Positions 2,759 to 36,663 of a stretch of 37,588 nucleotides of DNA are shown one piece after another (positions within the stretch are counted from its first letter, which is position 1; each line of letters opens with the position of its first letter). The notes under the pieces were generated by a model. That model saw nothing but the letters and a program-made list of their open reading frames with translations, made no database searches and was not told where the DNA came from. Source of the stretch: an uncultured Azonexus sp. (GTDB lineage: Bacteria; Pseudomonadota; Gammaproteobacteria; Burkholderiales; Rhodocyclaceae); the NCBI GenBank assembly GCA_937983545.1, contig CALJZP010000145.1:1-37588 (forward strand). The letters are read 5' to 3'. Made by a program: the position numbers and the translations under genes.

Positions 2759-3519
2759 AAATGATCTCCCAGATAGGCGCGGCGCACGGCGGCATCGTTG
2801 CGGACCTCGTCGGGCGTGCCGGTACAGATCAACTGTCCGTTGACCAGCACCGAGATGCGGTCGGCCAGCCGGAAAACGGCAGCCATGTCGTGCTCGACGA
2901 GCAGGATGGTGACGCGGCGGGCCAACTGCTCGATCAACTCGACCATGCGGGCCGACTCCTCGGGGCCGGTGCCGGCCATCGGCTCGTCGAGGAGCAGGAG
3001 TTTGGGGCGGGTGGCCAGTACCATGGCCAGCTCGAGTGCGCGCTGCTCGCCGTGCGACAGCATGCCGGCGGCAGCCCCGCCCTTGTCCTGCAGCCCAACC
3101 TGTTCGAGATAGCCCTTTGCTTCGTCGAAGAGGGCGGCTTCCCGGCCGACCGGCCGCCAGAAGCGGAAGCTGCTGCCGGCATCGTTGCGCCCCTGGACAG
3201 CCAGCGCCACGTTGTCGAGCGCGGAGAGGCCGGGAAAGATGTTGGTGATCTGGTAGGAGCGCGCCATGCCGGCGCTGACCCGCCGATGCATGGACAAGGC
3301 GGTCACGTCGTGGCCGGCAAAGCGGATGCGGCCGCTGTCCGGTTGCAAGGCACCGGAAACATGGTGGATGAAGGTCGTCTTGCCCGCGCCGTTCGGTCCG
3401 ATCAGGGCATGGACTTCGCCGGCGGTCACGTTGAAATCGACTTCCTTCAACGCATCGACCGCACCAAAGCGGCGCGAGAGCCGGCTAACCTCGAGCAATG
3501 CTTCAGCCATGCTCGTCAC
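2755..3519 (-). CDS. livG: HAAT-family ABC importer ATPase, LivG type
   Basis: A 254-residue ATPase with Walker A (GPNGAGKTT), the signature motif LSHGEQRALELA, Walker B (LLLLDEPMAG) and a proper switch histidine (LLVEHDM). The long insert between Walker A and the signature and the C-terminal VLVNGQLICTGTPDEVR are typical of LivG. It overlaps livM by 17 bp upstream and livF by 4 bp downstream, so the genes form one transcription unit. It powers uptake of an amino acid, amide or aromatic-acid type substrate across the inner membrane with LivF, LivH and LivM. Confidence 0.92.
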
Positions 3520-4462
3520 TCCGGGCGGGTCCGAACAGGGCGGCGACGCCCCGGGGGGCGAAGAGAACGACCGCGAGCAGCAACAGGCCGAGCACGATGT
3601 GCCAGTGCGCCGTGAAACCGACCAGCGTTTCTTCCAGCATCAGCAGGATCACGGCGCCGACCACGCCGCCGTACAGATAGCCGACGCCGCCGATGATGAC
3701 CATGACCAGCAGCGTGCCGGATTGCGTCCATTGCAGCAGGTTGGGGCTGGCCAGTCCGGTCAGGTTGGCGAGCAGTGCGCCGGCGAGCCCGGCGACCATG
3801 CCGCCCAGGACGAAGGCAACGAGACGAAAGCGGAATACGGGGTAGCCGAGCGCTTCCATGCGTGTCTCGTTTTCGCGGATGGCTTGCAGTACCCGGCCGA
3901 AGCGGGCATCGACGAGCCGGCCGAAAAGGGCCATGGCAGCGACCAGCGCAAGGAGGGCAGCGTAGAACAGGGCGTCGTCGGAAGCCAGGGGAAGGCCGCC
4001 CAGGGTCATCCGCCCGTTGAGCGGCAATCCATCATCGCCGCCCCAGCTGCGTGCGGAGACGAACAGGTAATACGCCATCTGGGCGAAAGCCAGGGTGATC
4101 ATGATGAAGTAGACGCCCCGGGTTCGCAGGCTGACGGCCCCGACGACGAGGGCGAATAATCCGGCAACGCTCATGGCCAGCGGGAAGGCGATGAGCGCTT
4201 CGTTGATGCCGGCCTGCTGGCAGATGGCGGCGACATAGGCGCCGGCGCCCAGAAAGGCGGCATGCCCGAGGGACACCATGCCGCCGAAGCCGAGTACGAG
4301 GTTCAGGCTGGAGGCGGCCAGTGCGAAGATCAGCACGCGGGTGGCGAAGCCGATATAGAACGCCTGGTCGAGTGCGGAGAGCGCGGTCGGCAAGGCGAGT
4401 GCCGCGAGCAGCAAGGCCAGTGACAGCGGTTTCTGCCAGGGGGCGGCGCGGTAGAGGGCCAT
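3503..4462 (-). CDS. livM: HAAT-family ABC importer permease, LivM type
   Basis: A 319-residue hydrophobic protein with about 8-10 membrane segments. It contains the LivM-type stretch LGFGGMVSLGHAAFLGAGAY near residue 60 and the coupling-helix region RENETRMEALGYPVFRFRL near 195. LivM is one of the two different permease halves of HAAT importers. Its 3' end overlaps livG, and about 52 bp separate it from livH upstream, consistent with one operon. Confidence 0.92.
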   Translation of the reverse strand: MALYRAAPWQKPLSLALLLAALALPTALSALDQAFYIGFATRVLIFALAASSLNLVLGFGGMVSLGHAAFLGAGAYVAAICQQAGINEALIAFPLAMSVAGLFALVVGAVSLRTRGVYFIMITLAFAQMAYYLFVSARSWGGDDGLPLNGRMTLGGLPLASDDALFYAALLALVAAMALFGRLVDARFGRVLQAIRENETRMEALGYPVFRFRLVAFVLGGMVAGLAGALLANLTGLASPNLLQWTQSGTLLVMVIIGGVGYLYGGVVGAVILLMLEETLVGFTAHWHIVLGLLLLAVVLFAPRGVAALFGPARSDEHG

Positions 4463-13053: not shown

Positions 13054-14331
13054 TCAGCTGAGCAAGGCAGCGACCGCTTCAGGATTGGACGGGAAGTAGA
13101 GATGAACATACGACGCGGTCAGTCGATTCAGGCGGTAGACGGCCTCGCCTTCACGCCCGTCGGCGGTGCGCGCCCGGGTCAGTGGCGCCAGCGGCGACTC
13201 GCTTTTCGAGTAATGGAAGGTGTGCCCGGACAGCGAGCCTTCAGGCAGATCGACGAATTGCGTACCGAGGGCGGCCAGCCGTTTCTGCATGACCGAGCGG
13301 CCGGGTAGCAGGCCGCCGAAGCGATGGGTGGTGCCGGCCTTGTCCACGACTTCCCCGAACAGGCTCATCATGCCGCCGCATTCGGCGAGCAGCGGCTTGC
13401 CGGCCGCGACGTGGTCGCACAACTGCTGCCACAGCGCGGCATTGCCGCCGATGGCCGGGGCGTGCAGCTCCGGGTAGCCGCCCGGCAGCCAGACGGCGTC
13501 GCAGGGGGGCAAGCTTTCGCCGGCGACCGGCGAGAAGAAACGCAGGTCGGCGCCCAGTTGCCGCAGGGTCTGCAGGTTGGCCGGGTAAATGAATCCGTAA
13601 GCCGCATCGTGGGCGATGGCGACGGTCTTGCCGGCGAGCAGCGGTGCCGTGTCGGGCGGCGCGGCCATGGCGAAATCGACCAGGGCGGGCAGGTCGACGG
13701 TGGCGCTGGCGGCGAGTGCATCGGCCAGCTTGTCGAGGCGCTGCCCGAGGTCGTCGATCTCGGCAGCCTGGAGCAGGCCGAGATGGCGCTCGGGCAGGCT
13801 GTCGTCGCTTTTCGGCAGGGCACCGAACCAGCCCATGCCGGGAGGCAGGCTTTCCTTCAGCATGTCGGCATGGCGGGGGCTGCCGACGCGGTTGGCGAGC
13901 ACGCCGGCGAAGGGCAGGCCGGGACGGTAGCTGGCCAGACCGTGGGCTACGGCGCCGAAGGTCTGGGCCATCTTGCCGGCATCGATCAGGGCCATGACCG
14001 GGATGGCGAAGCGTTCGGCGATGTCGGCGGCGGACGGCTGGCCGTCGAACAAGCCCATCACGCCCTCGATCAGGATCAGGTCGGAATCGGCCGCCGCCTG
14101 GGCCAGGCGCCAGCGCGCATCGGCCTCGCCGCACATGCCGAGATCGAGGTTCTGGCAGGGGCGGCCGCTGGCGAAGGCGTGGATCTGCGGGTCGAGAAAG
14201 TCAGGGCCGCACTTGAATACGGTGACGTGCCGGCCTTGTCGGGCATGCAGGCGGGCCAGGGCGGCGGTGACGGTGGTCTTGCCCTGGCCGGAGGCCGGGG
14301 CGGCGATGAGGAGGGCGGGACAGGCGGGCAT
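13054..14331 (-). CDS. cobB: Cobyrinate a,c-diamide synthase (CobB/CbiA)
   Basis: 425 residues. It amidates the a and c acetate side chains of cobyrinic acid using glutamine and ATP. The N-terminal ATP-binding domain has the P-loop APASGQGKTT (11-20), FKCGPDFLDP and IEGVMGLFDG (88-97). The C-terminal class I glutaminase domain has WLPGGYPELH and the nucleophile Cys318 in AECGGMM. The frame is open upstream, but homology begins at MPACPALLIAAPASGQG, so the ATG at 14331 is the start. It lies 68 bp downstream of the riboswitch-controlled TonB receptor on the same strand, so it may share that control, though a 7-bp hairpin sits between. Other late corrin genes are not in the window. Confidence 0.94.
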   Translation of the reverse strand: MPACPALLIAAPASGQGKTTVTAALARLHARQGRHVTVFKCGPDFLDPQIHAFASGRPCQNLDLGMCGEADARWRLAQAAADSDLILIEGVMGLFDGQPSAADIAERFAIPVMALIDAGKMAQTFGAVAHGLASYRPGLPFAGVLANRVGSPRHADMLKESLPPGMGWFGALPKSDDSLPERHLGLLQAAEIDDLGQRLDKLADALAASATVDLPALVDFAMAAPPDTAPLLAGKTVAIAHDAAYGFIYPANLQTLRQLGADLRFFSPVAGESLPPCDAVWLPGGYPELHAPAIGGNAALWQQLCDHVAAGKPLLAECGGMMSLFGEVVDKAGTTHRFGGLLPGRSVMQKRLAALGTQFVDLPEGSLSGHTFHYSKSESPLAPLTRARTADGREGEAVYRLNRLTASYVHLYFPSNPEAVAALLS

Positions 14332-14399: not shown

Positions 14400-16493
14400 T
14401 CAGAAGCTGGCGCGCAGGCCGAGGCGGAAGGTACGCGGTTCGAGCGGATGCACCAGTCGGCCTTCGATGGCGGTGCCCGAGCCACAGCCGCCGGTACCGG
14501 CCAGCGCTTCGTTGCGCGAGCAGGCGCCGCCCCAGTACTCGATGTCGTTGGCCCGCTTGTCGAGCAGGTTGAGGATGTCGAGGGTGAGTTGGAGCTGGGG
14601 GGTGATGCGGTAGCCGGCTTTCAGGTTGGCCATCCAGAATGCCGATGACTTGTGTTCGCCGCTTTCTTCCAGCGCGTAGGCGCCGAGGTAGCGCAGGCGC
14701 AGGCCGCCGAACCACGGGCCGCCGTGGTCGGCGGTGAGGCCGAGCGAGGCGGTCAGCGGAATGGCGTTGGGTACGCGGCGGCCGCCGTTGTCGGCGTTGG
14801 CTTCGCGGAAGCGGGCCTGCGACCAGGCGATGTCGGCGTCGACGATCCAGCCGTCAACCGGCGTGATGTAGTTGGACCATTCGACACCATGCCGGCGCGA
14901 GGCCCCTTTGGGTTCGGTGATGCCTTCGTCGCCGACGAAGACCAGTTCGGAGGCCAGCGCCATCTGCCAGACCGACAGGTTGGTATGCCATCCCTTGAGC
15001 GGCGTGGCCCGCAGGCCGAGTTCGCTGCCCTTGGCCTTGACGATCAGCGGCACGGCGTCGACGGCGCTGCCGTCCTGCGGATTGGTGCGTGCCGTGACGC
15101 CGCGCGCATCGTTGCTGTGGAAGCCGTGGCCCCAGTTGGCGTAGAACTCGGTCGGCCCGAGCAAATCGAAGGGGCCGAAGACGAGGCCGAGTTTCGGGCT
15201 GGTCTGGCCGGCCGAGGCCTCGCCGCCGTTGCCCATGTTGAACTGTCCGGCCAGCGGGGTGACGCGGGCGTCGATCTGGTCGCGCCGCAGGCCGAGCGTG
15301 CTGCGCAGCCAGCCGGTCCATTGCGTGCGGGCTTCGAGCAGGAAGGCGAGCGCCGTCTCGCGGATGCGGTCCTCGCGGATGGTCCGCGTGCGCTGCCGGT
15401 TCTCGGTGGCGTACAGCCCGACGAGCGAAATCCGATCCTGACGCAACTGGACGCCGGCGCTCAGTTCGGTGTCCTTCCATTGCGGCCCGAGGAACCAGCT
15501 TTGCCGGACCTGTCCGCCCCACAGCAGGCGTTCGTCGGCCTGTTCATGCTGGTCGCCCTGCACGCCGTTGATGTAGCCGGACGGGTTGGCGAAGTAGTTC
15601 AGGCCGTAATCGACGACGTAGAGGTTGAGCTTGCTGGCCCCGGACTCGTTGGTACGCGCCCAGTCGCCGGACAGGCTGGTGCGGTGCGTCTTGCCGCCGT
15701 CATTGGGCGACTGGGCGCCGAAACGGCCGATCTCGCCGGCAGCGATGGCGCGTTCGGGCACATGCTCGGTGGCTGTCCAGTCGGCCTTGTAGGCCATGCC
15801 GGTCAGCGAAAAGCCGTTGGCGGCGTTGCCCGAGGTCAGACGCAGCACGCCGTTGGTTTTGTTGAGCTTCTGCGGCTGATCCCAGGGGCCGTCATAGCCG
15901 CCGACATCGATGGCGCCCATCAGATTGATATCGCCCAGGCTGTGTCCGCCGGCGGCGAGCAGGCGCCGGAAATTGTGCTGGCCGGCGCCGAGCTCGACGA
16001 AGCTCCGGTCGAGCTTGCGCAGGTAGTCGATGTGTGCCGAGCCGGTCGTGGCGAAATCGCCGTCCTCTGCCGCGTAGACGCCCTTGCGGTAGCGGATGCC
16101 GCCGATCAGTTCGGGGATCAGGAAATTGAGATCCATGTAGCCCTGGCCGTGGGCGTGGCTGGCCATGTTGACCGGCATGCCCAGGACGTGGGTGGCGAAG
16201 TCGCTGCCGTGGTCGAGATTGAAACCGCGCAGGAAATACTGGTTGGCCTTGCCGTCGCCGGAGTGCTGGGTGACGATCATGCCGGGCACGGTTTCCAGCG
16301 CTTCGGCCGGACGCAGCAGCGGCCGGTTGGCCAGTTGCCTGGCGGTGACCGTGCCCTCGGTGGCCGAGTCGGCGACACCGGTCAGGTCGCGCTGGCCGCT
16401 GCTGACGGTCACTTCCTGCAGGGTGGGTAGGCCGGCGGCGTTGAGGTTGCCGATGCCGGCCATGGCGGCCAGCAAGAACAGACGGTGGTGCAT
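14400..16493 (-). CDS. TonB-dependent receptor under cobalamin riboswitch (non-BtuB type)
   Basis: 697 residues. It has a signal peptide (cleavage near residue 19, NLNA-AG), a TonB-box-like LQEVTVSS, a plug domain (about 35-150, with QYFLRGFNLDHGSDFATHVL) and a barrel ending RASF with terminal Phe. The start at 16493 was chosen over an ATG 30 bp upstream because a GGAG lies 8 bp before it and the signal peptide starts there. The leader carries a full cobalamin riboswitch, so a cobalamin, a corrinoid or a cobalt chelate is the likely ligand. The sequence differs clearly from the BtuB at 20869 and looks like the receptor family that shares the RGFNLDHG plug. cobB follows on the same strand. Confidence 0.9.
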   Translation of the reverse strand: MHHRLFLLAAMAGIGNLNAAGLPTLQEVTVSSGQRDLTGVADSATEGTVTARQLANRPLLRPAEALETVPGMIVTQHSGDGKANQYFLRGFNLDHGSDFATHVLGMPVNMASHAHGQGYMDLNFLIPELIGGIRYRKGVYAAEDGDFATTGSAHIDYLRKLDRSFVELGAGQHNFRRLLAAGGHSLGDINLMGAIDVGGYDGPWDQPQKLNKTNGVLRLTSGNAANGFSLTGMAYKADWTATEHVPERAIAAGEIGRFGAQSPNDGGKTHRTSLSGDWARTNESGASKLNLYVVDYGLNYFANPSGYINGVQGDQHEQADERLLWGGQVRQSWFLGPQWKDTELSAGVQLRQDRISLVGLYATENRQRTRTIREDRIRETALAFLLEARTQWTGWLRSTLGLRRDQIDARVTPLAGQFNMGNGGEASAGQTSPKLGLVFGPFDLLGPTEFYANWGHGFHSNDARGVTARTNPQDGSAVDAVPLIVKAKGSELGLRATPLKGWHTNLSVWQMALASELVFVGDEGITEPKGASRRHGVEWSNYITPVDGWIVDADIAWSQARFREANADNGGRRVPNAIPLTASLGLTADHGGPWFGGLRLRYLGAYALEESGEHKSSAFWMANLKAGYRITPQLQLTLDILNLLDKRANDIEYWGGACSRNEALAGTGGCGSGTAIEGRLVHPLEPRTFRLGLRASF

Positions 16494-16577
16494 GGTGCGA
16501 CTCCAGTGAACGACCGTCCGCATTCCCGCAGCCGGTCAGTTGCCATCGCTGCCGTTGGCGGCGGCAGCACGAAGCAA

Positions 16578-16755
16578 CAGGCCGGTCTCCGGGCTGGCGA
16601 GTCTTGATGCGCCGCCTTCCCAAGTGGTCACTCAGTGGCGTCATGGCGTATCCGCACTCGCTTACCGTTGCGGGGGCAGCCGGGGCATTGCGATCGCGTG
16701 GATCGCTCACCCCGTTCCCGTTTCACCCGACGCCTTGCGGCGGCGGGCACCTGTT
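16578..16755 (-). ncRNA. Cobalamin riboswitch (upstream of second TonB receptor)
   Basis: Read on the minus strand, this leader shows the ordered conserved elements: GGTGCCC near the 5' end (16744-16751), the GTGAAACGGGAA element, the core GCCCCCGCAACGGTAAGC (around 16660-16680), the GCCACTG box, GGGAAGGC, and a closing AGCCCGGAGACCGGCC. This is the adenosyl/hydroxocobalamin aptamer (B12-box) class. Downstream, a CTGCCG/CGGCAG hairpin (16549-16567) lies before the Shine-Dalgarno and has no T-run, so control is more likely translational than by termination. The boundaries are approximate. Confidence 0.93.
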
Positions 16756-16892
16756 GCCGGTTTCCGGCTGATATTTCAGATTCTTGCCGCCGGACGGACA
16801 AGATCGGGTCATGCATTTCTTACGGTCTGGCAGGCTCGATCAACACCCGCTTGCCGAACATGGCGGGCGGGCGATTCTGATCAGCAAGCCGT

Positions 16893-18512
16893 TCATGGCG
16901 TGACTTGTCTGAAGCCCTGCCGGCGATCCCAGTCGACGTAGAACAGGCGCGTCTGCTCGGCGGTGAAGGCGAAGCGCCGCTCACCGCCACTGGCGACGAC
17001 GCTTTCGCCGGTCGAGAAATCGAGTTCCGGCTCGCGGCCGGTGCGGTTGTTGACGACCAGCGGCAGGCCGGTTTCGGCGCTCCGCCGTTCCCAGGCATCG
17101 CCTGGTCCCATGCCGTCCACCGGTGGCCAGGCAGACGGGGCCAGCAGGATGGCGGCGCCCTGCGCGCGCAGGCGGGCGGCCGGTTCCGGCCGGTAGGTAT
17201 CGGCGCAGATCAACACGCCAACCGGGATGCCGTCGATGACGAAGGGGACGCCACCGCTGCCTGCCGTGGACCAGCTTTCGACGCTGCCGATCGGGCGCTG
17301 CTTGCGGTAGGTGCCGCGCAGCGCGCCGTCGCGGTCAATGACGGCGACGCTGTTGTGCAGTTTGCCGCTTTTGGCGTCGCGCTCGGCGAAGCCGACGAAG
17401 AGCGCCACGCGGTTGTCGCGGGCGATGGCGGCCAGCTTGCTTATCCAGGCGTCGGGATAGGGGGCGATCCAGGCGGTGCCGATGCGCTTGGCGAAGTTGT
17501 AGCCAGTTTCGGCCAGTTCCGGCGTGACGATCCAGTCAGCGCCCCGGCCGATCGCCTCGCCGATGCCGGCCTCGATACGCGCGCGGTTGCCGGCAATGTC
17601 GCCGGGTACGGCATCAAGATGCAGAAGAGCGAGGCGCAGGGATTCAGGAGCCTTGGGCGGGGTTTCGGCGGTCGCCGTGAAGCGTTGGCTGCCGGGCAGG
17701 AACAGGCCGTTCTGTTTGCCGAGCGCGGCGATCACTGCCTCGTGACTGGCCTTGCCGATCAGTTCGCCGATCCGGCTGTGGCCGCCGGTGTAGCTGGCCT
17801 GCGGCCCTTCGGTACCGGAAACGACGATGATGCTGTCGGTGCCGGTTCCCGTCGCTTGCACCGCCGGGGTGTAGGTGCTCGCCACCTGCAGGTCCTGCAG
17901 CGCGGCGGTCTTGCCCTCGGTGACGGTGATCAGGGCGCGGGCCAGCGCGGCGTCGGTGAGCCGGATGTTGGTCAGGACCAGGATGTTGATGGTGCCTGCC
18001 GGCTCACTGCCCTCGATGTAAGTGCCGGCATCGACGCCGGTGCGGATGGCGTTCGATTTGGCGCCGGCCGTGGCCAGCACGGTGACTGTGAGCGGGCCGT
18101 GGCGCTTGGTGACGACTGCCAGGTTGTCCATGTCGGCGGCGGTGGCCATGTGGGCGACCGCCGACTTGGCGAGTTGCAGGTCGCGGGCGGTCCCGGCATG
18201 GATATATTCGCCGTAGGCCTTGCCGCCGCGGCCGTCCCGGCCCATGAACTCGATGCCCAGCTTGTGCCAGAGCTGCGGGTGGCCGGCGTGGTTCAGCGCG
18301 GCATGGGCGTCGAGCAGGCCGTCGGAGGTCGACAGCGTGCGCCGCGCCTCGGGGAAGCGGACGATCAGCCGCTTTTCCCAGTAGCCGTCGCGCTCGCCGC
18401 GCAGGATCCGGGCTTCGGCCCGGACGTCGGCTGGCAGGTCGATTTCGCCGGCGCGGGCGATGGCCGACAGCAGGAGCAGGCCGCACAGGGCCAGGTAGCG
18501 GAGGGCGTTCAC
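16893..18512 (-). CDS. cbiZ: Exported CbiZ (adenosylcobinamide amidohydrolase)-nitrilase fusion
   Basis: 539 residues in three parts. A signal peptide (1-21, positively charged start, LCGLLLLSAIARA, cleavage before GE) directs it to the periplasm. A CbiZ domain (about 25-268) has TAGAKSNAIRTGVDAGTY, GTINILVLTN, TEGKTAALQDL, ATGTGTDS and TGGHSRIGELIG. CbiZ cleaves the aminopropanol amide of (adenosyl)cobinamide to give cobyric acid in salvage. A carbon-nitrogen hydrolase (nitrilase) domain (about 290-535) keeps the triad Glu332 (PELAETGY), Lys404 (TYRKQRP) and Cys436 (GVLICADTY). CbiZ is normally a stand-alone cytoplasmic enzyme, so export and fusion are unusual. The gene is 10 bp after cobO, last in the btuB-btuC-btuD-cobO operon. 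The nitrilase substrate is unknown; a corrinoid amide is the natural guess. The start ATG gives the signal peptide directly. Confidence 0.9.
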   Translation of the reverse strand: MNALRYLALCGLLLLSAIARAGEIDLPADVRAEARILRGERDGYWEKRLIVRFPEARRTLSTSDGLLDAHAALNHAGHPQLWHKLGIEFMGRDGRGGKAYGEYIHAGTARDLQLAKSAVAHMATAADMDNLAVVTKRHGPLTVTVLATAGAKSNAIRTGVDAGTYIEGSEPAGTINILVLTNIRLTDAALARALITVTEGKTAALQDLQVASTYTPAVQATGTGTDSIIVVSGTEGPQASYTGGHSRIGELIGKASHEAVIAALGKQNGLFLPGSQRFTATAETPPKAPESLRLALLHLDAVPGDIAGNRARIEAGIGEAIGRGADWIVTPELAETGYNFAKRIGTAWIAPYPDAWISKLAAIARDNRVALFVGFAERDAKSGKLHNSVAVIDRDGALRGTYRKQRPIGSVESWSTAGSGGVPFVIDGIPVGVLICADTYRPEPAARLRAQGAAILLAPSAWPPVDGMGPGDAWERRSAETGLPLVVNNRTGREPELDFSTGESVVASGGERRFAFTAEQTRLFYVDWDRRQGFRQVTP

Positions 18513-18522
18513 CGTTCGGATC

Positions 18523-19113
18523 TCAGAATTCGAGGCCGGGCATGGCCTTGATGCCGGCCTGGAAGGCGTGCTTCTCCATGCCGATGTCGCTCACCGTGTC
18601 GGCGACATCGCGCAGGGCCTGCGGCGCGGCACGGCCGGTGACGATGACGTGCTGCAAGAGGGGGCGGGAGAGCAATGTGGCGATCACCACATCGAGGTCA
18701 AGCCAGCCGTACTTGAAGGCATAGGTCATTTCGTCGAGCACGACGAGGCCGATGTCCGGATTGCTCAGATGGCCGCAAGCGACTTCCCAGGCCGCCTGCG
18801 CCGCCTTGGCATCGCGCTCCTTGTCCTGGGTCTCCCAGGTGAAGCCCTCGCCGCCGACGTGCCAGGCGACGTTCGGCTGCTGGCGGAAGAAGGCTTCTTC
18901 GCCGGTATCCGAACGTCCCTTGACGAACTGCACGACACCGACCTTCAGGCCGTGGCCGAGGGCGCGGGCGACGACGCCGAAAGCGGCGCTCGACTTGCCC
19001 TTGCCGTTGCCCGTGTTGATCACCAGAACGCCGCGCTCTTCCTGGGCGGCGGCGATCTTGCCGTCGACGACGGTCTTCTTCTTTTGCATGCGTTGTTCGT
19101 GGGTAACGGTCAT
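18523..19113 (-). CDS. cobO: Corrinoid adenosyltransferase CobO/BtuR
   Basis: 196 residues. It transfers the adenosyl group of ATP to cob(I)alamin or other cob(I)inoids. The P-loop TGNGKGKSS, followed by AAFGVVARALGHG, the VQFVKG motif, and LVVLDEMTYAFKYGWLD are the family marks. The charged extension before the P-loop (about 1-30) is typical of CobO. It lies 4 bp after btuD and 10 bp before the CbiZ fusion, so it is translated within the riboswitch-controlled operon and would adenosylate corrinoids delivered by BtuBCD. Confidence 0.95.
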   Translation of the reverse strand: MTVTHEQRMQKKKTVVDGKIAAAQEERGVLVINTGNGKGKSSAAFGVVARALGHGLKVGVVQFVKGRSDTGEEAFFRQQPNVAWHVGGEGFTWETQDKERDAKAAQAAWEVACGHLSNPDIGLVVLDEMTYAFKYGWLDLDVVIATLLSRPLLQHVIVTGRAAPQALRDVADTVSDIGMEKHAFQAGIKAMPGLEF

Positions 19114-19117
19114 TTTT

Positions 19118-19891
19118 CTATTCCGGAATGAAACAGCGATGGCCGCGGTCTTCGATCTGCCGCAGGCCGTAGCCGTAGAGTTCGGACAGCGTCGCCGCCG
19201 TCAGGATGTCGTCGACCGGTCCGGTTTCGGTCCGTCCGTCGCCGTGGACGAGCAGGGCGCGGTCGCTGAAGCGATGAGCCAGCGCTGGGTCGTGGAGGAC
19301 CATGACGACGCCGGCACCTTCGTCGCGCGCCGTGGCGGCGAACAGTTCGAGGACGGCCATCTGGTGATTGAGATCGAGGTGGGACAACGGCTCGTCGAGC
19401 AGGTAAAGCGGCGCTTCCTGGGTGAGCAGCGTGGCGATGGCCAGGCGCTGGCGTTCGCCGCCGGACAGCGTGTGGATCTGGCGATCCTCCATGCCGCGCA
19501 GGCCGACCGCACCCAGGGCGTCGCGGGCGAGAGCGGCGTCCCGGGAGGTTTCCCAGTCCCAGCGGCCGAGATGCGGATGGCGGCCGGTCAGTGTCGTTTC
19601 CAGCACGGTCGAGCCGAACGGGTCGTTCTGGAACTGGCCGAGCCAGGCGCGGCGCAGCGCGGACTGGCGCGGATGCAGGCCGGCCGCATCGTCGCCGGCG
19701 AGCAGTACCGTGCCGGCGGCCGGTTTGCGCAGGCCGGCCAGCGTGGACAGCAGGGTCGATTTGCCGGCGCCGTTGCGGCCGAGGATGGCCAGTCGTTCGC
19801 CGGCCGCCAGACTGAGATCGAGGCGGTCGATAATGACCTTGTTGCCGACTGTCACCCGCAGTTGCCGGGTTTCGAGCAGGGGCCGGCTCAT
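19118..19891 (-). CDS. btuD: Cobalamin ABC importer ATPase BtuD
   Basis: 257 residues from the ATG at 19891; the frame is open further upstream, but that part overlaps btuC and is not homologous. Walker A is LGRNGAGKST, the signature LSGGERQRLA, Walker B LYLLDEPLSHLD and the switch histidine VLHD. It belongs to the FecE/BtuD group that powers vitamin B12, heme or siderophore import. The start overlaps the btuC stop by 4 bp. Together with btuB, btuC and the upstream cobalamin riboswitch, this assigns B12 as the substrate by context. Confidence 0.93.
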   Translation of the reverse strand: MSRPLLETRQLRVTVGNKVIIDRLDLSLAAGERLAILGRNGAGKSTLLSTLAGLRKPAAGTVLLAGDDAAGLHPRQSALRRAWLGQFQNDPFGSTVLETTLTGRHPHLGRWDWETSRDAALARDALGAVGLRGMEDRQIHTLSGGERQRLAIATLLTQEAPLYLLDEPLSHLDLNHQMAVLELFAATARDEGAGVVMVLHDPALAHRFSDRALLVHGDGRTETGPVDDILTAATLSELYGYGLRQIEDRGHRCFIPE

Positions 19892-20865
19892 TTCGGCTGC
19901 CTCGACAACAGGAAGAGGAAAACCGGTACCCCGATCAGCGCCGTCAGCACGCCGACCGGCAGTTGCTGCGGCGCGATGATGGTCCGCGCCAGCGTGTCGG
20001 CCAGCACCAGCAGCGAGCCGCCGGCCAGCACCGAGGCGGGGAGCAGCAGGCGCTGGTCGTTGCCGGTGGCGAGGCGCACCAGGTGCGGCACGACCAGACC
20101 GACGAAGCCGATCGAGCCAGCCGTGGTTACCGACGCCGCCGTGGCCAGCGAGGCGAGCAGGTAGATCGCGTAGCGCAGCCGATCCACCGCCACGCCCAGC
20201 GCCTGGGCCTGCATCATGCCGCGCGACAACAGGTTCAGTTCGCGGGCGAAGGGCATGGCCAGCGCCAGCGCCACGCCCAATGCCAGCAAGGCTGGCCACC
20301 ATTGCGCGCTCTGGCCGAGGTCGCCCATCAGCCAGAACAGCATGCCGCGCAGCTTGTGCTCCTCGGCGACGGCCAGCATCAAGGCCACCAGCGCGCCGCA
20401 GCCGGCGGCGACGATGACGCCGGTGAGCAGCAGGCGTGTCTGCGTCCAGCTGCCGTCGCCGTGGGCCAACCCGAAGACGATGAACATGGCACCGAGCGCC
20501 CCGGCGAAAGCCAGAGCGTCGATGCCGAGAACCGGCAGGCCGATCAGGATGGCGAACGTGGCACCCACTCCGGCGCCGCCGGAAATGCCCAGCACGTAAG
20601 GGTCGGCCAGCGGATTGCGCAACAAAACTTGCATCAGTGCCCCGGCCAGCGCCAGCAGGCCGCCGCAGGCGAAGCCGGCGATCGCCCGGGGCAGGCGCAA
20701 CTGCAGCACGACATCGCCACCACCGCCCTCTCGGCCGAGCAGGGCAGCGAACACCTCGCCATAGGAAACCTTGAAACTGCCCACCGTCAAGGCGAAACCG
20801 AAACTCACCGCGGTCAGCAGAACGAGGCTGGCGAGGATCAGGAAAGCGCGTTGGCGGGTGGGCAT
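19888..20865 (-). CDS. btuC: Cobalamin ABC importer permease BtuC
   Basis: 325 residues with about ten membrane segments and the FecCD marks: LRLPRAIAGFACGGLLALAG, QVLLRNPLADPYVLGISGGAGVG (shown split: NPLADPYVLGISGGA) and the C-terminal GSIGFVGLVVPHLVRL. It is the inner-membrane channel for corrinoids. It starts 3 bp after btuB and overlaps btuD by 4 bp. The periplasmic binding protein BtuF that normally docks on this permease is not encoded in the window. Confidence 0.93.
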   Translation of the reverse strand: MPTRQRAFLILASLVLLTAVSFGFALTVGSFKVSYGEVFAALLGREGGGGDVVLQLRLPRAIAGFACGGLLALAGALMQVLLRNPLADPYVLGISGGAGVGATFAILIGLPVLGIDALAFAGALGAMFIVFGLAHGDGSWTQTRLLLTGVIVAAGCGALVALMLAVAEEHKLRGMLFWLMGDLGQSAQWWPALLALGVALALAMPFARELNLLSRGMMQAQALGVAVDRLRYAIYLLASLATAASVTTAGSIGFVGLVVPHLVRLATGNDQRLLLPASVLAGGSLLVLADTLARTIIAPQQLPVGVLTALIGVPVFLFLLSRQPK

Positions 20866-20868
20866 GGC

Positions 20869-22776
20869 TTACTGGAAGCTGTAGCGGACGCCGGCAAAAG
20901 CCGACAGGCCCGGCGTGCCATAAATGACGCTGGTCGAACGGGCGACGTCGTAGTTGCGGTCGAACAGGTTATCCACGCGGGCAAAGGCCTGCCATTCCTT
21001 GTTGAAGGCATAGTTGGCGAACAGATTGGTCAGCGCATAGCCGCCCATGTGCACCTGGTTCAGGCCGGTTTTCCAATGCGGATCGTCGTAACGTCCGCCC
21101 ACCGCCTTGAACTCGATGCCGCCCCGGAAGGCGCCGGCGACATAGGTGGCGCTGACCAGGCCAAAAGCCTTGGCCCGACGCCGGAGTTGCTGGTGATGAT
21201 CCTGATCGCGCGGGTCCTGGAAGGTGGCGTTGGCGTTGAGCAGCCAGCTGCCGAGTGCCGTCCCGGCGCTGATCTCGATCCCGTCGATGATCGCCTGTCC
21301 GACGTTGGTGGGGGTCGAGAAGAAGGTGTTGGGATCGGTGGTCCACTCGATCAGGTTGTTGATCTTGTTGTGGAAATAGGTGATCCGGGCCTGCGTCGCG
21401 CCTTGCTGGAAACGCAGCGAGGCTTCCGCATTGCGCGACTCCTCCGGTTTCAGATTGGCGTTGCCGACGCCGACGCCAGCGGTGAACGGAAAGTAGAGGT
21501 CGTTCATGGTCGGCGCCTTGAAGGCCGTTCCATAACTGCCGGCCACCCGCCACGACGGGGCCAGTTGATAGCCGTAGCCGAGGAGCCAGGTTTCACGCTG
21601 GCCGAACTGCGAGTTGTCGTCGCTGCGCAGGTTGGCCTGGAAGGCGTGCGAGCCGAGTACGGCATTCCAGCCGAGCAGTGCCGAGTCGATGGTGCGCGCT
21701 TTCCGCGAGTAGTTCTTGGTCGAGTCGACCTCCTGCTCCAGTCGCTCCAGGGCGACCAGGGCGCTGCCCAGCGGCAGCTTGAGGTCGTTTTGCCAGGTGT
21801 ATTGTTTCTGGGTGGTCTTGAAGAAGCTGATCGGATCGCCGATGACCGATTCTGGACTTTCCGTGCGGTCCTCCCCCTGGGCGACCTTCAGCGTCGACTT
21901 CCAGAAGGAGGTCGGGGCGACGCTGGCGTAGGCGAAGGCGCCCGATACGCGGTGCTTCATCTGGTAATCGAGCCTGGCGTCAACATTTACAAAAGCGTTC
22001 GGGTCCCATTTGTATGCGTCGTAGCGGTTGGTCGATACCGAGTTGAAGAGGCCGGCGCCGACCTCGGCATCCTTGCTGAAGTTATAGCTGGCGTTCAGGT
22101 TCAGGTTGCTGTTGCGGTAACCGTCGCGATCCGGGTTGTAGCCAGGGTACTTGGGCGATTCGATGGCATTGATGCCTTGGGTGCCGCTGATGCCGCCCTT
22201 GATGCTGTAGCTCAGGTTACCGATCCGGTTGGCGTGGGCGAGGCTGGTTTCGTAGGTCGAGGCGCTGCCGGCGCCGACCTGGGCGGAGAACCGTGGGGCG
22301 TCGCCGGGGGCCTTGGTGAAAATCTGGATGACGCCGCCGATGGCGTCCGATCCGTAGAGCGCTGAGGCCGGGCCGCGCAACACCTCGATGCGTTCGATCT
22401 GCGCCAGCGGGATCATCTGCAGGGCGGTAGCGCCGGTCGTGGCAGAGCTCACCCGTACGCCGTCGAGCAGGATCAGCGCATGGCCGCTGTTGGTGCCGCG
22501 GATAAAAACACTTTCGTCAGCGCCGCGGCCGCCGGACCGTCCGAATTCGACTCCGGCGGTGCGGCCGAGCAATTCGCCCAACGTGGCGGCCGGGCCGACC
22601 TGTTCGATGTCCTGGCGTTCGATAATGGTGACTTCGGCAATGGCCTTGTTGGCGCGTTGCGACTGACGCGTGGCGGTGACGACAACCGGGTCGAGCGTGG
22701 CGAGCAATTCGGCCTGTGCCGGAGCTATAAAGGCGAGCGGCAGGAGGGCTGCCAGCGGCTTCAAATGTGGATTCAT
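20869..22776 (-). CDS. btuB: Vitamin B12 TonB-dependent receptor BtuB
   Basis: 635 residues from the ATG at 22776. The start is supported by an AAGGA Shine-Dalgarno and by the signal peptide (MNPHLKPLAALLPLAFIAPAQA). An in-frame ATG 33 bp upstream is disfavoured. It has a TonB-box-like DPVVVTATR, a plug (about 40-150, with GRSGGRGADESVFIRGTNSGH and SALYGSDAIGGVIQIFTK), and a barrel ending GVRYSFQ, with Phe as the penultimate residue. It resembles E. coli BtuB in size and plug motifs. It is the first gene of the riboswitch-controlled operon and imports cobalamin across the outer membrane with TonB energy. Confidence 0.94.
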   Translation of the reverse strand: MNPHLKPLAALLPLAFIAPAQAELLATLDPVVVTATRQSQRANKAIAEVTIIERQDIEQVGPAATLGELLGRTAGVEFGRSGGRGADESVFIRGTNSGHALILLDGVRVSSATTGATALQMIPLAQIERIEVLRGPASALYGSDAIGGVIQIFTKAPGDAPRFSAQVGAGSASTYETSLAHANRIGNLSYSIKGGISGTQGINAIESPKYPGYNPDRDGYRNSNLNLNASYNFSKDAEVGAGLFNSVSTNRYDAYKWDPNAFVNVDARLDYQMKHRVSGAFAYASVAPTSFWKSTLKVAQGEDRTESPESVIGDPISFFKTTQKQYTWQNDLKLPLGSALVALERLEQEVDSTKNYSRKARTIDSALLGWNAVLGSHAFQANLRSDDNSQFGQRETWLLGYGYQLAPSWRVAGSYGTAFKAPTMNDLYFPFTAGVGVGNANLKPEESRNAEASLRFQQGATQARITYFHNKINNLIEWTTDPNTFFSTPTNVGQAIIDGIEISAGTALGSWLLNANATFQDPRDQDHHQQLRRRAKAFGLVSATYVAGAFRGGIEFKAVGGRYDDPHWKTGLNQVHMGGYALTNLFANYAFNKEWQAFARVDNLFDRNYDVARSTSVIYGTPGLSAFAGVRYSFQ

Positions 22777-22781
22777 GCTAA

Positions 22782-22832
22782 TTCCTTTTCCCGGCGGGCG
22801 TCCCCGCATGCCGGAAATGTGTTGAAAAGGAA
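22782..22832 (-). promoter_or_regulatory. Candidate Shine-Dalgarno-sequestering stem of btuB leader
   Basis: On the minus strand TTCCTTTTC (22832-22824) is the exact complement of the GAAAAGGAA (22790-22782) that contains the btuB Shine-Dalgarno. The 9-bp stem would hide the ribosome site. Between the arms a GCGGG/CCCGC hairpin shortens the loop. This fits the expression platform of a translational riboswitch. Confidence 0.6.
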
Positions 22833-22898
22833 ATGCCGGGGAACGAGCCGGTCAAACTGGCGCCACCACCCCGTGGCACTTCGACATTTTTTGTTTCA

Positions 22899-23075
22899 GG
22901 CCGGTATCCGGGCTTGCAAGTCTTGACGTATCGCCTTCCCGGGGTTGCACCCAGTGGCCTCGTGATACGCCCGCACTTGCTTACCGTTGCGGGGGCAGCA
23001 GCGGAATGGTCTTGTCGAAGACGCACCGCTTTCCCGTTTAACCGCGCTTGGAGAACCCTTGCGCAGCACCTGACA
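22899..23075 (-). ncRNA. Cobalamin riboswitch (btuB operon leader)
   Basis: On the minus strand the leader contains GGTGC near the 5' end, GTTAAACGGGAA, the core GCCCCCGCAACGGTAAGC (around 22979-22999), GCCACTGGGTGC, GGGAAGGCG, and the closing AGCCCGGATACCGGCC. This is the standard order for the cobalamin aptamer. It lies 123 bp upstream of the btuB start and is followed by a Shine-Dalgarno-pairing stem. A TAGAAT hexamer is correctly placed for transcription to begin just before the aptamer. Confidence 0.94.
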
Positions 23076-23083
23076 CGGCGCGC

Positions 23084-23089
23084 ATTCTA
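23084..23089 (-). promoter_or_regulatory. Candidate -10 box of btuB operon
   Basis: TAGAAT on the minus strand lies about 8-14 nt upstream of the predicted aptamer 5' end, placing +1 near 23077. The -35 region is poor. Confidence 0.45.
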
Positions 23090-23756: not shown

Positions 23757-23943
23757 ACCCACCGAGTGTTCCCTGCGGTGTTTGTTAAGGCCATACATTC
23801 CTTGAACCAATGCTGATTGGCATCGGTTGCGGACCGTTGAAACCGCTGTTGTGCGCGCTCTTTGACGAGTGTGCCTGATGCGGGAGGAAAGCAGCCACTC
23901 TGAACCCAGGTTCAGGATGCCGGCCTGACGGCACTCGCGGGGG
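23757..23943 (+). ncRNA. ssrS: 6S RNA
   Basis: About 187 nt beginning 18 bp after zapA. The closing stem pairs CACCGAGTG (about 23759-23767) with CACTCGCGGGG (about 23932-23942). The 5' arm GTTCCCTGCGGTG, the conserved CCTTGAACC and the mirrored 3' arm GGTTCAGGATGCCGG match the betaproteobacterial 6S layout. 6S RNA mimics an open promoter and sequesters sigma70 RNA polymerase in stationary phase. No obvious promoter of its own lies in the short gap, so it may be processed from the zapA transcript. The ends are approximate; a perfect terminator follows. Confidence 0.88.
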
Positions 23944-23962
23944 CCTGTATTTGCAGTAAAGC

Positions 23963-33495: not shown

Positions 33496-35646
<2,151 letters not shown>

Positions 35647-35652
35647 GCCCGG

Positions 35653-36663
35653 ATGAAACTGGACGAAGCGCCGGTGCGTGCCAATCTCCTGTCTGCCGCC
35701 GACCAGTCGCTGGTCGACGGCGTGCTGGCGGGTCAGCGTCGCTCGCTGGCCAAGGCCATCACGCTGATCGAATCGACCCGTGCCGATCACCAGCAGCGGG
35801 CGCAGCAGGTATTGACCGCGCTGTTGCCGAAGACCGGCAACGCGATCCGTATCGGCATCTCCGGTGTGCCGGGGGCGGGCAAGTCCACCTTCATCGAGGC
35901 GCTCGGAGTCTGGTTGATCGAGCAGGGCAAGAAACTCGCTGTGCTGGCTATCGACCCTTCGTCGTCGGTCACCGGAGGTTCCATCCTCGGCGACAAGACG
36001 CGCATGGAATTGTTGAGCCAGCGCGAGGAAGCCTTCATTCGTCCCAGCCCGTCGGCCGGTTCGCTCGGCGGCGTAGCCGAAAAGACGCGCGAAGCCATGC
36101 TGCTCTGCGAAGCGGCCGGCTACGACGTGATCATCATCGAGACGGTCGGCGTCGGTCAGTCGGAAACCACGGTCGCCGGCATGGTCGACATGTTCTGCCT
36201 GCTGCAACTGCCGAATGCCGGCGACGACCTGCAGGCCATCAAGAAGGGCATCGTCGAGATCGCCGATCTGGTGGTCATCAACAAGGCCGATATCGACAAG
36301 CAGGCGACTGCCGTGGTCCGTGCCCAGTGGCGCAACGCGCTGCACATGCTGCGGCCGGCCTCGCCCAATTGGGCGCCGCCGGTCATCGCCCTGTCTGCCC
36401 TGCACAAGGAAGGCATTGTGGATTTCTGGGAACAGGTCGAGAAATACCAGTCCGCCCTCAAGCCGACTGGCGAATTCGCCGCTAAACGCCAGCATCAGTC
36501 GCTGTCCTGGATGTGGCAATTGATCGACTCCGGCCTGCGCCAGCACTTCCGTCATCACCCACGCGTGCAGGAGAACCTGCCCGCTTTTACCCGATCCGTC
36601 GAGGAGGGCCATACGACCCCGGCTGCCGCCGCGTATGCGCTGCTCGACTACCTGAAACACTAA
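35653..36663 (+). CDS. meaB: Methylmalonyl-CoA mutase-associated GTPase MeaB
   Basis: 336 residues. This G3E-type chaperone GTPase loads and protects the adenosylcobalamin cofactor of the mutase. Walker A is GVPGAGKSTFIEAL (about 70-83), and the family stretch SSVTGGSILGDKTRM, the G3-like ETVGVGQSE and the base-recognition NKAD are intact. A C-terminal dimerisation arm is present. It lies 6 bp after the mutase stop and 27 bp before the carboxylase gene, in one operon. Confidence 0.95.
   Translation: MKLDEAPVRANLLSAADQSLVDGVLAGQRRSLAKAITLIESTRADHQQRAQQVLTALLPKTGNAIRIGISGVPGAGKSTFIEALGVWLIEQGKKLAVLAIDPSSSVTGGSILGDKTRMELLSQREEAFIRPSPSAGSLGGVAEKTREAMLLCEAAGYDVIIIETVGVGQSETTVAGMVDMFCLLQLPNAGDDLQAIKKGIVEIADLVVINKADIDKQATAVVRAQWRNALHMLRPASPNWAPPVIALSALHKEGIVDFWEQVEKYQSALKPTGEFAAKRQHQSLSWMWQLIDSGLRQHFRHHPRVQENLPAFTRSVEEGHTTPAAAAYALLDYLKH

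Follow-up and report, generated by a model that had tools for sequence, protein, structure and literature searches.

We found a gene, cbiZ-nit, that joins a CbiZ domain and a nitrilase-superfamily amidase domain in one protein behind an export-type leader. The gene occupies positions 16893..18512 on the minus strand of the window (the whole stretch of 37,588 nucleotides that was analysed) and encodes 539 amino acid residues in a single frame with a GTG start; the first-pass annotation had read it as one protein, and its coordinates, strand and frame proved to be exact. By sequence, the protein belongs to both the CbiZ family and the nitrilase superfamily. These two families are already known, and what appears to be new is the joined, export-type form. 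In our estimate, there is a slightly better than even chance (about 0.52) that the protein is a periplasmic two-domain corrinoid amidohydrolase, which would carry out the first steps in salvaging and remodelling external cobamides, ahead of their passage through the inner membrane. Export would mean that B12 analogues are trimmed while still outside that membrane, with consequences for the sharing and loss of corrinoids in communities and for the question of why CobB and CobQ are retained in bacteria that depend on salvage.

Two complete domains in one reading frame

The CbiZ domain (residues 52-260; 17733..18359, minus strand) matched the Pfam profile PF01955 over all of its length (positions 1-191 of 191; E 2.9e-48; 164.9 bits against a gathering cut-off of 27), and a second analysis put the domain in the same place. 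The core residues of the family, namely GTIN (173-176), E199, K201, TGTGTD (221-226), H245, and G249, are kept in at least 22 of 23 aligned rows. A linker of residues 261-292 (17637..17732, minus strand) is the interval separating this domain from the nitrilase-superfamily (CN_hydrolase) domain (residues 293-527; 16932..17636, minus strand), which matched PF00795 from position 1 to 245 of 256 (E 3.3e-27). Thus, the profile matches bear out the presence of a full CbiZ domain and a full nitrilase domain in the same protein.

The catalytic triad proposed for the nitrilase half was examined in an alignment of 33 rows, consisting of the window and 32 loci obtained by a scan of public genome contigs. 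The catalytic Glu332 (codon at 17517..17519) and Lys404 (17301..17303) are identical in all 33 rows, and the nucleophile Cys436 (17205..17207; all three on the minus strand) is identical in 32, the remaining row (L026) being cut by a contig end before the site; the triad is therefore intact. The fusion is present in 31 of the 32 loci (29 complete, with L018 and L026 truncated at a contig edge), which match across both halves in one open frame, and a frameshift artefact is thereby ruled out. The mean share of the commonest residue is 0.84 in the CbiZ domain and also 0.84 in the nitrilase domain, 0.73 in residues 266-290, and 0.55 in residues 1-21.

A fold comparison that covered residues 284-533 gave a CN_hydrolase-type fold for the nitrilase half. 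The closest matches of known structure are small-amide enzymes, including formamidase, aliphatic, and carbamoyl types, and the half is 15-30% identical to those listed. Among the 10 NCBIfam nitrilase subfamilies listed (N-carbamoylputrescine amidase, NAD synthase, formamidase, Lnt, and others), no cut-off was reached, the best score being 78.1 bits against 479. No NCBIfam equivalog fits the joined form, and a sequence search for CbiZ found no relative among solved structures at E <=1.

The protein shares with the CbiZ adenosylcobinamide amidohydrolases (PF01955) the full-length domain, the core motifs, and the company of corrinoid transport genes; it differs from them in its export-type leader, in the nitrilase-type amidase that is fused to or paired with it, and in its separate branch in the tree. 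CbiS (CbiZ / alpha-ribazole phosphatase) likewise links CbiZ to another enzymatic domain, but there the partner is a phosphatase instead of a nitrilase, and the fusion protein falls outside the CbiS family: it scored 63.9 bits over the CbiZ part, only positions 54-193 of the 335 in the profile NF038002 being matched, against a cut-off of 250. With the nitrilase-superfamily amidases (PF00795), such as the Nesterenkonia amidase and the B. cereus formamidase, it has in common the fold and the Glu-Lys-Cys triad, whereas the CbiZ partner, the leader, and the corrinoid gene context set it apart from the solved members. CbiR also starts cobamide remodelling by opening the nucleotide loop, but it cuts another bond and comes from an unrelated family (PMC7733943). 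The annotation knew of no described enzyme with this layout; consistent with this, no paper naming both CbiZ and a nitrilase was found in the literature searched, and none linking CbiZ to Dechloromonas (most subscription papers lie outside that literature).

Gene neighbourhood and distribution

The cbiZ-nit gene is the last of a minus-strand set that begins with a cobalamin riboswitch (22882..23088; RF00174, 108.7 bits). The riboswitch is followed by a btuB-like TonB-dependent receptor gene (20869..22809; best NCBIfam match TIGR01779, 484 bits against a cut-off of 600), a btuC-like FecCD permease gene (19888..20865; PF01032, E 4.6e-86; best NCBIfam match BtuC, under its cut-off), a btuD-like ABC ATPase gene (19118..19891; PF00005; its start at 19891 was inferred from the frame, and it adjoins btuC in relatives), and the corrinoid adenosyltransferase gene cobO (18523..19113; NF004637 and TIGR00708, both above cut-off), which lies 10 nt upstream of cbiZ-nit. 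On the other side, also on the minus strand, are a second cobalamin riboswitch (16563..16769; RF00174, 109.3 bits), a second TonB-dependent receptor gene (14400..16523), and cobB, the gene for cobyrinic acid a,c-diamide synthase (13054..14331, start inferred; NF002204, 428 bits against a cut-off of 254). The second receptor, which among the loci tested occurs only in L002, L004, and L025, has its own riboswitch and is perhaps another corrinoid receptor. Elsewhere in the window, the plus strand carries genes for methylmalonyl-CoA mutase, a B12 user, and the MeaB GTPase (33496-36663), and a 6S RNA (23767-23947) scored barely above the Rfam cut-off (48.3 against 46.4 bits) and was also present in all seven relatives scanned.

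A window-like btuB-btuC-btuD-cobO-cbiZ-nit set is found in L002, L003, L005-L013, L018, L022, L025, L028, L029, and L031, and the 4.5-kb piece L004 carries cobO and cbiZ-nit. In nine loci (L007, L008, L009, L010, L013, L022, L028, L029, and L031), cobB lies within 51 nt of cbiZ-nit, its likely start being 9 to 40 nt past the fused stop. A block of chelatase, ExbB, and DUF2149 genes stands between cbiZ-nit and cobB in L005, L006, and L011; in L002 this block follows cbiZ-nit and is itself followed by the second receptor, which in L025, as in the window, sits between cbiZ-nit and cobB. No cobB was found within the stretch examined of L002, L003, L004, L012, and the cut L018, or in that of L014-L017, L019-L021, L023, L024, L027, L030, and L033.

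Other settings also occur. The order is TonB receptor, ExbB, DUF2149, chelatase, cbiZ-nit in L015 and L023, and CbiM, CbiN, cbiZ-nit, receptor, ExbB, DUF2149, chelatase, tonB-exbB-exbD in L019. The gene lies between nrdA and nrdB in L020, L021, L023, L027, L030, and L033 (L033:5738-12479, where Pfam confirmed both nrd genes); in the short L026, it follows nrdA. A cobalamin riboswitch precedes the nrd site in five of the six loci, and a B12-independent ribonucleotide reductase shares this site. In L014, L016, and L024, sodB is just upstream of cbiZ-nit, with none of the other corrinoid or nrd settings. In all four Zoogloea loci (L014, L015, L016, and L024), sodB lies upstream of cbiZ-nit, which stands by itself or together with the receptor-chelatase set. 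A same-strand cobalamin riboswitch was found upstream in the window and, at distances between about 130 nt and about 7 kb, in 15 of the 20 fused loci scanned (directly upstream of cbiZ-nit in L017); none reached the Rfam cut-off in the other five (L014, L016, L023, L024, and the 3.5-kb L026). With riboswitches and with btuB, btuC, btuD, cobO, and cobB as neighbours, the gene stands in a corrinoid context, and these neighbouring genes tie the fusion protein to corrinoids.

The fusion is carried by relatives of Dechloromonas from water and soil: the locus titles name Dechloromonas, Azonexus, Azonexaceae, Zoogloea, Propionivibrio, Accumulibacter, Rhodocyclaceae, Rhodocyclales, and beta proteobacterium, and a single locus (L029) is titled Gammaproteobacteria, within which GTDB places the betaproteobacteria. 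CbiZ is rare in these groups. It was present in two of the 300 genomes sampled from the order, one being the window's own genome and the other a member of the same genus, and it was absent from another genome of that genus and from six genomes of the family; in the class, it was present in 10 of the 369 genomes sampled.

A split form was found in another gammaproteobacterial order. CbiZ occurs in three of its 109 genomes (G458, G686, and G697), and in all three the CbiZ and Nit genes are neighbours that overlap or nearly overlap, depending on the start choice; in G458, the nitrilase frame overlaps the end of CbiZ, and each gene has a leader. The gene order in the split form is CobN-like chelatase with leader, ExbB-like, DUF2149, CbiZ, Nit; the ExbB-like frame of G686 was not separable from a shadow frame, and the chelatase frame of G697 is broken in the assembly. 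In G686, a gene for Thr-P decarboxylase (CobD; best match, slightly under the TIGR01140 cut-off) overlaps nit. In a CbiZ tree of 23 rows, the 12 fused and three split rows stood apart from eight other rows of the class with branch support of 99/98; the tree has long branches and gives no order of the fused and split forms. The neighbouring separate genes and the common branch make the fusion look like the joined form of a two-gene module, and the pairing in all three CbiZ-bearing genomes of the other order suggests a shared function of the two halves.

Predicted export and possible substrates of the two halves

Residues 1-21 (18450..18512, minus strand) form a predicted signal peptide, judged from the sequence and from relatives, with putative cleavage after ARA. 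The N terminus, MNALRYLALCGLLLLSAIARA followed by GE past the putative cleavage site, combines charged residues at its start with a hydrophobic core and an A-x-A motif. Comparable leaders were found in the window and in all 29 complete fused loci (in L019 only if a later start is chosen), and A-x-A is present in 24 of the 29. The separate CbiZ and Nit genes of the three split-form genomes also have export-type leaders on both. Of the annotation's claim of an exported protein, therefore, the signal-like leader is seen in the window and the complete relatives, while export itself is predicted. The hydrophobic N terminus could instead be no signal, and the protein could be cytoplasmic like ordinary CbiZ. 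The choice of start was inferred, and the simple hydrophobicity score used to judge the leader (at least 1.85 in fused rows, median 2.58) overlaps that of cytosolic controls, three of 11 of which scored at least 2.1, so that the score alone cannot tell exported from cytosolic proteins. We regard a cytoplasmic location as very improbable, as the hydrophobic core is present in all complete rows, A-x-A is frequent, and the separate CbiZ, Nit, and chelatase genes carry the same kind of leader. In the parts of the literature examined, CbiZ and other cobamide remodelling enzymes are treated without any export step, which is a point against the periplasmic reading.

If the protein is periplasmic, as predicted, the pathway may run as follows. 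A TonB receptor, judged from its family, would bring a corrinoid into the periplasm. There, the CbiZ domain would hydrolyse the f side-chain amide and remove the aminopropanol-nucleotide loop to give cobyric acid, as its family and conserved motifs suggest; CbiZ activity in the periplasm is likely. The nitrilase domain might then hydrolyse at least one primary amide of the corrin side chains to leave a cobyrinic-acid-like core, which is the least certain step. BtuCD would import the core, and CobO would adenosylate it; CobB and CobQ would put the amides back; and CobD, CbiB, CobU, and CobS would restore the loop, now carrying the lower ligand native to the cell. The genes for these last steps were partly shown here, and the reactions are taken from knowledge of the pathway. 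In many relatives, the leader-bearing CobN-like chelatase encoded alongside may act on the same trimmed ring.

For the second amidase, the annotation had offered the released aminopropanol amide, the lower-ligand loop, or side-chain amides as substrates. The first two are chemically unlikely. Hydrolysis by CbiZ leaves an amine and a carboxylate, and since the amine is on the released loop, the nitrilase is unlikely to act there; the usual lower ligands contain no amide. Side-chain amides of the corrin ring are the best candidate, and we propose them tentatively, at somewhat less than an even chance. In the literature searched, no report of the removal of corrinoid side-chain amides was found, and if the nitrilase half does remove them, this would be an activity without such a report. 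Removing amides only to restore them would cost glutamine and ATP, which counts against this best explanation.

The gene content of the fused genomes bears on this point. CbiC was present in 10 of 19 genomes, and CobI/CbiL was above cut-off in the same 10 of the 21 searched; the CobI/CbiL methyltransferase profile gave some match at E <=0.001 in 20 of 21, mostly under cut-off. Seven fused genomes (G300, G304, G306, G307, G310, G311, and G316; four isolates and three MAGs) had neither CbiC nor an above-cut-off CobI/CbiL. All seven have CobQ (all 10 CobQ proteins tested passed the cut-off) and CobB, the latter above cut-off in six, and the CobB of G306 is a contig-end fragment 66.5% identical to that of the window. 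CobS was found in 17 of 19 genomes, all except G000 and G315. Fused cells that are seemingly unable to make the ring thus seem to keep CobB and CobQ, which add the side-chain amides, and to be able to rebuild the loop. This retention is expected if corrinoids from outside lack some of their amides on arrival or are deprived of them afterwards. However, a haloarchaeon with an ordinary cbiZ is said to have retained the genes for the steps leading from cobyrinic acid to adenosylcobalamin (PMC3403918), and CobB retention therefore need not point to the nitrilase. In the split genomes, G458 and G686 had CobQ and no match to CobB, and G697 had neither; the genome of L032 gave CobQ, but neither CobS nor CobB was found in it. 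These absences count against the proposed pathway, as do the loci named above in which no cobB or no riboswitch was found. CbiJ (PF02571) turned up in 0 of 14 genomes, some of which do have CbiC and CobI/CbiL, and was therefore uninformative as a marker of ring synthesis.

Alternatively, only the CbiZ half may work on corrinoids. The nitrilase half would then have a different substrate, for example a small amide or a nitrile, or would transfer an acyl group, and the fusion would serve only to coordinate expression or export. Nitrilase-superfamily enzymes act mostly on small amides, and so do the nearest solved matches; moreover, the Accumulibacter MAG locus L032 has at its locus the nitrilase half only (3165-4031), with a hydrophobic leader. 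That lone copy, however, lies between tonB-exbB-exbD and a true cobN above the CobN cut-off, and at E <=1e-30 the nitrilase subfamily occurs in only two of the 369 genomes of the class, both with a leader-bearing CbiZ. We give this alternative a minor chance, though one to be taken seriously.

A binding role was also considered, in which the protein would be an exported corrinoid-binding partner of BtuCD in place of BtuF. No Peripla_BP_2 (BtuF-type) protein was found in the window's own genome, but such proteins are present in all 17 relatives, and the absence therefore probably reflects the 86% completeness of that genome, G000, which also lacks the CobS that relatives have, probably as missing sequence. 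A BtuF-like gene lies between btuD and cobO in L005 and L008 and beside cbiZ-nit in L027 and L033 (with Pfam, only under cut-off in L027 and no match in L033). As the catalytic residues of both domains are kept as well, binding in place of catalysis has next to no probability, and BtuF replacement was dropped.

The CobN-like chelatase and cobalt

A CobN-like (BtuS/HmuS-type) chelatase with ExbB and DUF2149 accompanies fused cbiZ-nit in seven loci (L002, L005, L006, L011, L015, L019, and L023) and the split pair in all three split-form genomes. In L002, L005, L006, and L011, the start codon of the chelatase and the stop codon of cbiZ-nit overlap in the sequence ATGA. All eight chelatase rows examined have an N-terminal hydrophobic leader, and all eight also have a hydrophobic stretch at the C terminus, though a weaker one in L019. 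Three chelatases scanned were under every CobN cut-off. A nine-row profile scored 605 bits for the HmuS heme de-chelatase, 591 for ChlH, and 543 for CobN, and a true CobN control scored 719 bits for CobN against 308.

These genes suggest that periplasmic disassembly might serve for cobalt: CbiZ and Nit would strip the loop and the amides, the leader-bearing CobN-like protein would extract cobalt in a reversal of late B12 synthesis, and the cobalt would be imported. The normal substrate of CobN has free propionates. The linkage to the fused or split genes, including the ATGA overlap, fits this reading, as do the presence of subtypes 29-34% identical to each other, the best match of the L023-type chelatase to HmuS (473 bits, against 421 for CobN), and the cobalt uptake genes CbiM and CbiN that adjoin the set in L019. 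On the other hand, the L011-type chelatase is closest to ChlH (365 bits), followed by HmuS (344) and CobN (335); the chelatase is absent from the stretch examined in the window and many relatives; and BtuC/BtuD, CobO, and CobB in the set speak for import of the ring itself. Cobalt recovery as the purpose is accordingly unlikely.

A broader scheme, which we hold to be rather doubtful, is a periplasmic disassembly line in which the three activities run late B12 synthesis backwards. CbiZ would undo the attachment of aminopropanol, the nitrilase would deamidate the side chains and so undo CobQ and CobB, and the chelatase would remove or exchange cobalt, powered by an ion channel of ExbB and DUF2149. 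Import of the bare ring or of its metal would follow, and then rebuilding.

BtuS is a third CobN-like kind proposed by Rodionov in 2003, as told in PMC6460266, and HmuS takes iron out of heme (PMC12583661). The partner gene shares with BtuS/HmuS chelatases the N-terminal leader, the C-terminal hydrophobic stretch (in the rows tested), and ExbB and DUF2149 as neighbours; the two papers deal with heme iron, whereas here the chelatase is a partner of CbiZ-Nit and is partly behind B12 riboswitches. The linkage to cbiZ-nit makes the role of BtuS-type proteins at B12-controlled sites directly testable. Chelatases with export-type leaders, of at least two subtypes, were observed at L005 (10623-15710) and in L002, L006, L011, L015, L019, L023, L056, L065, and L066.
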